A stretch of 64,000 nucleotides of DNA, from contig JAFEBV010000013.1 of the NCBI GenBank assembly GCA_018242485.1, forward strand, positions 62,001 through 126,000, written 5' to 3'. Below, piece after piece: positions 47,453 to 49,917 of this stretch. Numbering within the stretch: the stretch's first letter is position 1; the number at the start of each line of letters is the position of its first letter. The notes beneath the pieces were generated by a model that ran no database searches, was not told the DNA's origin, and was given only the letters and a program-made list of their open reading frames with translations. The translations under genes were made by a program, and so were the position numbers. Origin of the DNA: Pseudomonadota bacterium. Lineage in GTDB: Bacteria > Pseudomonadota > Gammaproteobacteria > Xanthomonadales > Xanthomonadaceae.

Positions 47453-47476
47453 CCCTCCCCTGCAAGCAGGGGAGGG
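47453..47476. repeat. CCCTCCCCTGC palindrome at the head of the tandem array
   Basis: CCCTCCCCTGC (47453-47463) and GCAGGGGAGGG (47466-47476) form a perfect 11-base hairpin with loop AA. The same palindrome occurs at 59232-59255 and in degenerate form near 47691 and 59425. Confidence 0.82.
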
Positions 47477-47640
47477 AGACAGGCGGCGTGCTTCGACTCC
47501 TGCCAGCAGGGGAGGGAAACAGGTCGCGTGCTTAGACTCCTGCAAGCAGGGGATGGAAACAGGGCGCGTGCTTCGACGTCTGCAAGCAGAGGATGGAAAC
47601 AGGGCGCGTGCTTTGGCACCGCCGCAAGCAGGGGGACAGG
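47461..47640. repeat. 40-base tandem repeat, four full units and a partial
   Basis: Units begin TGCAAGCAGG (or TGCCAGCAGG) at 47461, 47501, 47541 and 47581, each exactly 40 bases, with a partial fifth unit from about 47622 (CGCAAGCAGGGGGACAGG). Shared blocks are GCAAGCAGGGGA, GGAAACAGG and CGCGTGCTT. Units differ at a few bases. It lies between convergent dnaJ and the pilin-like lipoprotein gene. Confidence 0.88.
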
Positions 47641-47757
47641 CCACACCCTTCAGCATACAGGACGAGGCTGGTGTCTTGGTTCGACTCCTCCCCTACTTGC
47701 AGGGGGGAGGCTGGGAGGGGTTGGCACCGCTCAGCGGCAACACCCGGGCGGCGCCGC

Positions 47758-49917
47758 TCAGCGGCAAGCGCCGGGTCGATATTTGACTGGGATGGTGGTT
47801 CCGGCTGCCGTATCGCAGCTCCAGCGCACCATACCCGCCTGCGGATCGGGCACGAATGACAGTACGCCACCACGGATCGCCGCATTGGCCCGGTTGCCAT
47901 AGACGACATTGATGCGGCCGTTGTCGATGGTCACGCTGCTGACGTAGTTGCCTTCGATGCTGGATGGCTGGGCTACACCGGCGGTGGCGTTGTCGGTGGG
48001 CATGCTTCCCTTGTTGGAGTAGTACTCGGCCACTGCAACCTTCGATCCTTCAGACAACATCGCGCCTTCGGACACCTGCGAGCGCACCACATAATCCTGA
48101 TACGCCGGAATGGCGATCGCGGCGAGGATCGACACCACCGCCACGGTGGTCATCGTGCCGCCTTGCCCGGAGACCACGCCTTCCAGCGGCGATTGCTCGT
48201 AATTCACCTGCACGGCCAGCCGCTGCGCGTTGGCCTGCACGGCGATGCCGGCGATGCCCTCGGTGGGCAGGCGGAGCTGCTTGGCGGTCGGCAGGGTGGT
48301 CAGGTCCACCGGCGCGCCCAGCGCGTTGCCCAGTGCGTCCAGCACGGCGAGATAGGTGTAGTACACCTGCCGGTTCATGTCGTGGGTGGTGGTGGTGTAG
48401 CCCAGCAGGGTCTGGCTGGCATCGAGCGATTGCCGCTTGCGCAACCAGTCGCCGATCGCTGTGTCGGGGCTGGAAGCCAATCGGTCGATCAGCGGTTGCG
48501 GCACGCGCGCCATCACCAGCCAGTCGCCCTCCTCGATCCAGTAGCGGTCGCTGCCGATGCGCGCATACAGCTTGATCCATGCGGCCGATTGCGTATCGGG
48601 TGAGCCCGGGATGAAGTTCGATTCCGGGATGGCGACGTGCAGATGGTGGATCTGTCCGCCGGCGAGCTTGCTCACCGTGTGGCGCCAGCCGAAGCGTTTC
48701 GACAGCTCGTCGATCCTGGCGTACAGCGCTTTGCGGTCGGAGATGCGGAAGGCGGTGAAATCGCCGTCGGCGTCGCCGAACAGCACCGCCTGTTTGCCGT
48801 ACAGGCCGGCGGTGCCTATCAGGTCGATGCCGAACTTTTCCTGCATTTTCGCGGCGATGCTGTCGTAACCGGCACGCGTGCCGGCACCGAAATCACGGTC
48901 GAGGTTGTCGTGGATGGCTTGCAGGTTGTCGCGGCCGGGGAGGGCCATCGTCGCAACCCACGCGGGTGCTCCGGATGTCTTCAGGTCGATGGCGGGGTTG
49001 TTCGTGGCCAGATAACCCAGCAGCCGTGCCTGCGGTGCGCGCACCTGCACCTGCAGGCGTCCGTGACCATCCACCGTGCCCCAGCCCAGTGCGATGGATT
49101 GCGCATTCTCGACCGCATCGCGCAACAGGCCATCGGCGGGCGCATCCGACATCCGCGCGGCGGCCTGCGTGTTGAGGTTCTTCAGGCTCATCCACGCGAA
49201 CAGGCCCTGCCCGGAGGCGTCGATCTCCTTTTCCGCATCCTGCATCGGGCTGGGGCGCGTGGTCTTGATCGCGGCCAGATCCTGTTGCAGCGTCATCGCC
49301 GAGGCGGTTGCGCCCAGCGACAGGAACAGCCGGTGCGTGGCAACGTCGAAATGCAGTGCGCCGAACTTCTGCAACGCCGCATCGCCGTTGGCGTCAATGG
49401 GCGCCTGCAGGATCGACGGGCCATTGCCGGTCAAAGCGGTGATGCGCGCGTTGAGCGCGGCCACGTCGGGGATGTCGAGCACGGTGGTGGCCAGCACGCG
49501 ACTGAACGGCGATACGCCGTCGGAACTGTCGATCGCGGCGACCTCGATCGGCCCGGATTGATCGCCGAGCAGGATGTTCAGCGCCGGCCCCGCGCCAGCC
49601 TGGGTGAGCACGGGATCGGTCTGCGCCGCCTTGCGCAGCGCGGCGATCAGCTTGACGTGCTGCTCGGCGGCCAAAGCCGCATCCAGCGGGCGGCCATCGG
49701 GCGCGGCCAGCGTGCCCCACAGCGAGGGGATGCGCAGGTAGGCGACGGTATGCTCGGGCAGGCGCTCGCGCAGCCACGCCGGTTGCGAGATCGCCGCATC
49801 GGCGCGGGCGATGGCGGCTTGATCCACGCTGGCGACGCGGCCTTGCTGCGAGCAGCCGGCGAGGACGACGAGGGCGGAAGTGGCGGCGGCCACCAGCAGG
49901 CGTTGGCGCAGTTTCAT
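47758..49917 (-). CDS. Lipoprotein with C-terminal type IV pilin domain lacking a prepilin leader
   Basis: This protein of 719 residues opens with MKLRQRLLVAAATSALVVLAGC, a lipobox ending at Cys22. Residues 30-585 form a long secreted region of unknown family, DUF3352-like at best. Residues 588-719 match mature type IV pilin: a hydrophobic helix (AVVSILAAIAIPAYQDYVVRSQV), the following alpha/beta region (EGSKVAVAEYYSNKG), and a C-terminal disulfide-type pair (Cys701, Cys718). The usual GF(x)4E leader site is absent. An internal ATG 48153 with AAGG 7 bases upstream could start a short pilin-like product of 131 residues. Function unknown. Confidence 0.8.
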   Translation of the reverse strand: MKLRQRLLVAAATSALVVLAGCSQQGRVASVDQAAIARADAAISQPAWLRERLPEHTVAYLRIPSLWGTLAAPDGRPLDAALAAEQHVKLIAALRKAAQTDPVLTQAGAGPALNILLGDQSGPIEVAAIDSSDGVSPFSRVLATTVLDIPDVAALNARITALTGNGPSILQAPIDANGDAALQKFGALHFDVATHRLFLSLGATASAMTLQQDLAAIKTTRPSPMQDAEKEIDASGQGLFAWMSLKNLNTQAAARMSDAPADGLLRDAVENAQSIALGWGTVDGHGRLQVQVRAPQARLLGYLATNNPAIDLKTSGAPAWVATMALPGRDNLQAIHDNLDRDFGAGTRAGYDSIAAKMQEKFGIDLIGTAGLYGKQAVLFGDADGDFTAFRISDRKALYARIDELSKRFGWRHTVSKLAGGQIHHLHVAIPESNFIPGSPDTQSAAWIKLYARIGSDRYWIEEGDWLVMARVPQPLIDRLASSPDTAIGDWLRKRQSLDASQTLLGYTTTTHDMNRQVYYTYLAVLDALGNALGAPVDLTTLPTAKQLRLPTEGIAGIAVQANAQRLAVQVNYEQSPLEGVVSGQGGTMTTVAVVSILAAIAIPAYQDYVVRSQVSEGAMLSEGSKVAVAEYYSNKGSMPTDNATAGVAQPSSIEGNYVSSVTIDNGRINVVYGNRANAAIRGGVLSFVPDPQAGMVRWSCDTAAGTTIPVKYRPGACR

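Follow-up and report, generated by a model that had tools for sequence, protein, structure and literature searches.

The gene at 47758-49917 on the minus strand of the window, by which we mean the whole 64,000-nucleotide stretch analysed here, encodes a predicted lipoprotein of 719 residues that ends in a type IV pilin module and has no prepilin leader. On the evidence of its homologues, the lipoprotein-pilin fusion is real, old, conserved across families of the Gammaproteobacteria, and under selection. The explanation that we tentatively favour, with slightly more doubt than belief, is that the protein is a Sec-exported, lipid-anchored pilin mimic whose leaderless C-terminal module docks on the pilus machinery.

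Gene organization

The open reading frame, position and length given in the original prediction were right (719 aa, 47758-49917, minus strand). The gene and its parts are as follows.

47758-49917, minus strand: whole gene of the leaderless pilin-module lipoprotein (P0001; 719 aa), with the ATG at 49915-49917 and the stop at 47758-47760; full-length homologues are conserved
49852-49917, minus strand: predicted lipoprotein signal peptide with lipobox LAGC, residues 1-22, assigned from sequence; codon of the lipidation Cys22 at 49852-49854
48184-49785, minus strand: predicted N-terminal extracytoplasmic domain (N-domain), residues 45-578, alpha/beta; AlphaFold2 pLDDT mostly >90
48151-48183, minus strand: Gly/Ser-rich linker, residues 579-589, in place of the prepilin leader, F1 and E5; contains an internal ATG at 48151-48153 (= pilin M7)
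48010-48150, minus strand: pilin alpha-1 helix, residues 590-636, with its hydrophobic part at 590-606; best conserved segment
47761-48009, minus strand: pilin globular headpiece, residues 637-719 (PF00114), with C701 (47815-47817) and C718 (47764-47766)

An array of 40-nt repeats, each unit with a palindrome-like CCCCTGCAAGCAGGGG, lies at 47457-47705 of the window, between dnaJ and the lipoprotein-pilin gene.

A pilin tail without prepilin features

The tail of the protein matched the pilin family PF00114 over the full length of the model (residues 611-719 to model positions 1-108 of 108) with an E value of 4.4e-23 and a score of 82.7 bits, compared to a cut-off of 22, which is far above chance level. 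The register of a mature pilin was followed without gaps from M7 (= M589) onwards (MTTVAVVSILAAIAIPAYQDY vs MIVVAIIAILAAIAIPAYQDY). Mature position 5 is G587 and not Glu, position 1 is S583 and not Phe, and no cleavage motif stands before them. In an alignment of 52 full-length proteins, neither the leader motif (0/52) nor a Glu at position 5 (0/52) was found, while C701 and C718 were both present in every protein (52/52) and exactly three Cys occurred in 36/52. A C-terminal pilin match with a Cys pair and the absence of a prepilin leader, both claimed from the window alone, were thus borne out. Type IV pilins are described as being synthesised without exception as prepilins that carry a class III signal at the N-terminus (PMC10191384). 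The protein is therefore no type IV pilin by definition, and its tail is a pilin in fold only. The organism does make standard pilins, since its genome carries a pair of typical pilA genes, each with a complete leader (KGFTLIELM), on another contig.

Across the 52 proteins, mean conservation was 0.68 for alpha-1 residues 590-612, 0.45 for the N-domain, and 0.40 for the headpiece, which is highly divergent between families. Residues A600, A602, P604, and Y606 of alpha-1 were among the invariant ones. Within the window's genus, dN/dS ranged from 0.23 to 0.37 for the headpiece, from 0.14 to 0.33 for the helix, and from 0.22 to 0.38 for the N-domain. The low values of headpiece and helix indicate that the tail is under purifying selection.

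Lipoprotein signal and N-terminal domain

The N-terminal signal (MKLRQRLLVAAATSALVVLAGC) has the lipobox LAGC/S with Cys at +1, from which lipidation is predicted. The Cys22 column was Cys in 49/52 homologues, and the strict lipobox pattern was matched by 44/52. Four of the other eight had a near-lipobox Cys (L065, TVGC; L077, LCGC; L089, YSGC; L092, TAAC), and of the rest, L085 had a Sec-type signal without a lipobox, L095 was a borderline case, and L087 and L091 had uncertain start positions. The ~560 residues after the signal gave no significant sequence match in Pfam, NCBIfam or PDB, and hhalign detected no internal duplication of the N-domain. A viral fold library gave no match at E 0.001. 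The N-domain family thus appears to be unannotated in Pfam and NCBIfam.

Predicted structure and topology

An AlphaFold2 model built from 52 sequences had a pLDDT of 89 and a pTM of 0.79, with pLDDT <50 only at residues 21-26 (signal end) and 584-600 (linker and alpha-1 start); a model from only 5 sequences reached a pLDDT of 52 and was left out. The top Foldseek match in the PDB was gonococcal PilE (1ay2; E 2.3e-10, TMt 0.75). By this match and by PF00114, alpha-1 packed on a beta-sheet headpiece with a C-terminal Cys pair is present, the disulfide bond itself being predicted. A second match, for another part of the model, was TP0453 (3k8g-3k8j; E 2e-4 to 6e-3, TMt 0.41-0.49, rmsd 8-11), which was partial and no more than a lead; the Foldseek output came without the matched residues, and no part other than the N-domain is big enough for it.

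Given the predicted lipoprotein signal, the N-domain would be extracytoplasmic, and the invariance of both C-terminal Cys points to a headpiece that is outside as well. With the headpiece outside, alpha-1 should not be a stop-transfer helix, or it would have to be embedded in the membrane surface or in a partner, or be packed on the N-domain. Its 17-residue hydrophobic stretch has a mean hydropathy of 1.5-2.7 in homologues, which is enough to span a membrane, and is followed by a basic residue.

Distribution and origin of the fusion

With the N-domain alone as the probe, 4 of the family's 247 genomes gave a match, each of them from the window's genus, and a distant homologue (L012) was identified in a Rhodanobacteraceae MAG. 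An N-domain profile recovered 71 of 397 genomes of the order, representing 17 genera. A wider profile added 12 genomes outside the order, from 10 genera and 8 families; it gave 15 hits, from which two inside the order and one false match (G690, 1.3e-5) were left out. A phylum-wide draw yielded no match outside the class. Both parts do occur together elsewhere, which was the check proposed with the original prediction and makes the finding stronger than it was there.

The tails of ~64 ORFs were read (50 order loci, 12 class loci, L009, and L012, with some weaker or fragmentary order hits left out), and all but one showed the linker followed by a pilin-like, hydrophobic alpha-1 and then the headpiece. 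The exception is the closest relative, the sister species G025, whose protein has 86% identity to that of the window; in it, exactly 294 bp (98 codons) spanning the headpiece are missing in frame (locus L011, around 3508). Alpha-1 and the last Arg-stop remain, so that the protein ends in AEGAIR-stop, and a short shared sequence is found at the junction. The loss is either a natural deletion or an assembly fault.

No relatives with the two parts as separate genes were seen, and full-length homologues at 20-71% identity ruled out that the gene owes its form to a frameshift, to wrongly joined assembly pieces or to a gene fusion of recent date. A fusion of two genes, one of the readings offered before, hence holds for the deep past and fails as a recent event. 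The other reading, that an envelope protein has put the pilin fold to a fixed use, is supported by the class-wide fusion and by purifying selection on the module.

Internal start codon

The original prediction also raised the possibility of a separate, leaderless product of 131 residues from an internal ATG with a good ribosome binding site. Such an ATG is present in the window (48151-48153, with AAGG ~7 nt upstream), where it codes for pilin M7. Among the homologues, however, an ATG stood at the M7 position in 28/52 only, and a Shine-Dalgarno-like motif was rare there. The start site itself is therefore found in the window but is not conserved, and a conserved separate product would be unlikely from these sequences. 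That the internal start yields a separate pilin-like protein is by far the least probable of the explanations considered here, the Met being shared with ordinary pilins as M7.

Relationship to type IV pili

PilQ scored above the cut-off in 48 of 49 gene-bearing genomes, and the remaining checked genome contained a PilQ fragment. As PilQ was also above the cut-off in 305 of the 369 class genomes, this co-occurrence is weak evidence for a link, and since most piliated genomes are without the lipoprotein-pilin gene, the protein is not a core pilus part. Pilus genes were not seen as conserved neighbours in the gene neighbourhoods. The order-level neighbours were genes that we take, by recognition of their sequences, to be housekeeping genes, among them typA, ppi, and mdh. 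In G247, the sole PF00114 match was the fused protein (weak, 1.1e-4), though PilQ was present, and a major pilin was not found with PF00114.

In phylogenetic trees, the pilin module of the window's genus nested among the genus's own PilA proteins, where its neighbour was the module of a Zn-ribbon/RDD/pilin protein, with bootstrap values of 95-100. The N-domain of the same genus, unlike its pilin module, grouped with the wider family. AU tests did not reject a single origin of the module (p = 0.091 and 0.171 in the large tree; p = 0.40 and 0.07 in the small tree). These patterns are suggestive of a replacement of the tail from a host pilin gene in the window's genus, as if the tail were kept matched to the pilin.

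Comparison with known systems

The tail shares with type IVa major pilins (PF00114; Neisseria PilE, 1ay2) its sequence and fold, the register from M7 and the Cys pair. It differs from them in having no class III signal peptide, F1 or Glu5, and in its C-terminal position behind a Sec-exported lipoprotein domain. Modular pilins such as PilB and PilC of Streptococcus sanguinis likewise combine a functional domain, a short linker and a pilin module (PMC8179133). Those proteins open with a class III signal peptide and the pilin module, onto which the additional domain is grafted C-terminally (PMC8179133), whereas here the order is inverted and export follows the lipoprotein route. The protein thus represents a new, unannotated version of the known modular-pilin theme, and no description of such a lipoprotein-pilin protein was found in the open-access literature.

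PilC/PilY1 proteins are also extracytoplasmic, and they too combine an N-terminus that varies with a carrier module at the C-terminus (PMC8179133). Going by the description of PilY1, its carrier is a beta-propeller domain, which sets it apart from the pilin module found here. TP0453, a Treponema lipoprotein of the inner leaflet of the outer membrane (PMC7521688), is likewise a lipoprotein, and its fold may be similar to part of the N-domain, but identity is ~10% and TP0453 has no pilin tail, and the match may reflect shared topology only.

Outside the lipoprotein-pilin family, the nearest module (67% identity) was that of the Zn-ribbon/RDD/pilin protein in the window's own genome (L002:1483-2568), which is a leaderless pilin headpiece on another membrane protein. 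It differs in having a multi-pass anchor, and with its likely topology the pilin helix could traverse the membrane in the usual orientation.

Other leaderless pilin headpieces

The gene for that protein lies on the minus strand of contig C8 of the same genome, next to a second gene, L002:2601-3182 (minus strand). Both products open with the same Zn-ribbon (MFCMACGTQLPDGTRFCTACGASVG) and neither has a prepilin leader; one continues into RDD and a pilin headpiece, and the other into a membrane segment and a T2SSG (GspG) headpiece. A lipoprotein of ~150 aa is encoded at L030:1453-1896 (minus strand, contig C35 of the same genome), and in its mature form it consists of a pilin headpiece that lacks the hydrophobic alpha-1N (PF00114, ~1e-7). 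This small lipoprotein is kept in three species (L027 and L031 in sister species). A further protein, from G095 (L029:1201-1797, plus strand), has a Cys-rich Zn-ribbon-like N-terminus, then a membrane segment, and finally a pilin headpiece, and it is likewise leaderless.

Proposed function and alternative explanations

As an anchored mimic, the protein would be exported unfolded by Sec and then lipidated, and it would never be processed by the prepilin peptidase PilD. In pilins, charge neutralisation, the docking of subunits or both are ascribed to Glu5 and the free N-terminus (PMC10191384), and loss of the cleavage site would make both processing and filament assembly unlikely. The invariant Cys pair would form the usual pilin disulfide in the periplasm, so that tail and lipid anchor would share one side of the membrane, and hydrophobic alpha-1 would then be no ordinary membrane-spanning stop-transfer helix. 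The least certain step is that the exposed alpha-1 would serve as a docking surface for a partner that recognises pilins, such as the pilus core, minor pilins or the assembly platform. The protein may thereby tether, cap or modulate type IV pili instead of polymerising as a subunit. Several observations stand against this mechanism, including the lack of a conserved pilus neighbour, the many piliated genomes without the gene, AU p values of 0.07-0.40, and the G025 protein, which has no headpiece while its N-domain is kept at 86% identity. Moreover, a helix hydrophobic enough to span the membrane would put the tail in the cytoplasm. A more general form, in which Gammaproteobacterial mimics routed by Sec and the lipoprotein pathway all dock via alpha-1 and stay pilus-matched through occasional replacement of the tail from their own pilA, seems to us rather unlikely.

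We favour the anchored docking mimic over its main competitor, an ancient recruitment of the pilin fold to a role that has nothing to do with pili, which is unlikely in our judgement but stands ahead of the other alternatives. The protein would then be a lipoprotein for envelope maintenance or lipid handling, with alpha-1 as a second, membrane-touching attachment. The weak likeness of the N-domain to TP0453, the missing linkage to pilus genes, the divergence of headpieces between families (0.40) and the absence of the headpiece in G025 are all consistent with such a role. Yet TP0453 is matched only in part (TMt 0.41-0.49, with a large rmsd), PilQ or a fragment of it is encoded by all gene-bearing genomes that were checked, and alpha-1 retains the pilin-specific A, A, P, and Y, which a generic membrane helix would not need. 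It is improbable that the N-domain is cargo at the pilus tip, with the tail joining a minor-pilin tip complex in the manner of PilC/PilY1 or as a cap subunit without Glu5. Among type IV pilins, Glu5 is missing from tip caps only, PilC/PilY1 proteins combine variable N-termini with a C-terminal carrier module (PMC8179133, PMC10191384), and the N-domain does stand before a carrier-like pilin module; however, the lipidation Cys column (49/52) would tie the tip to the membrane, and a disordered linker replaces the first six residues of alpha-1. Marginally less probable again is that alpha-1 acts as a true stop-transfer helix, leaving the lipoprotein domain outside and the headpiece in the cytoplasm: the hydropathy of the 17 residues (1.5-2.7) and the basic residue after them would suit this arrangement, but the Cys pair in 52/52 proteins and the exact count of three Cys in 36/52 fit one lipid-bearing Cys plus a periplasmic disulfide.

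Significance

The protein places a faithful pilin fold at the opposite end of a lipoprotein, behind a different export route, and this arrangement is conserved over a bacterial class. If the anchored mimic does bind pili, pili would have a partner or regulator of a new kind. Otherwise, pilin headpieces would be general envelope domains, and caution would be needed in naming a protein 'pilin' from PF00114 alone.
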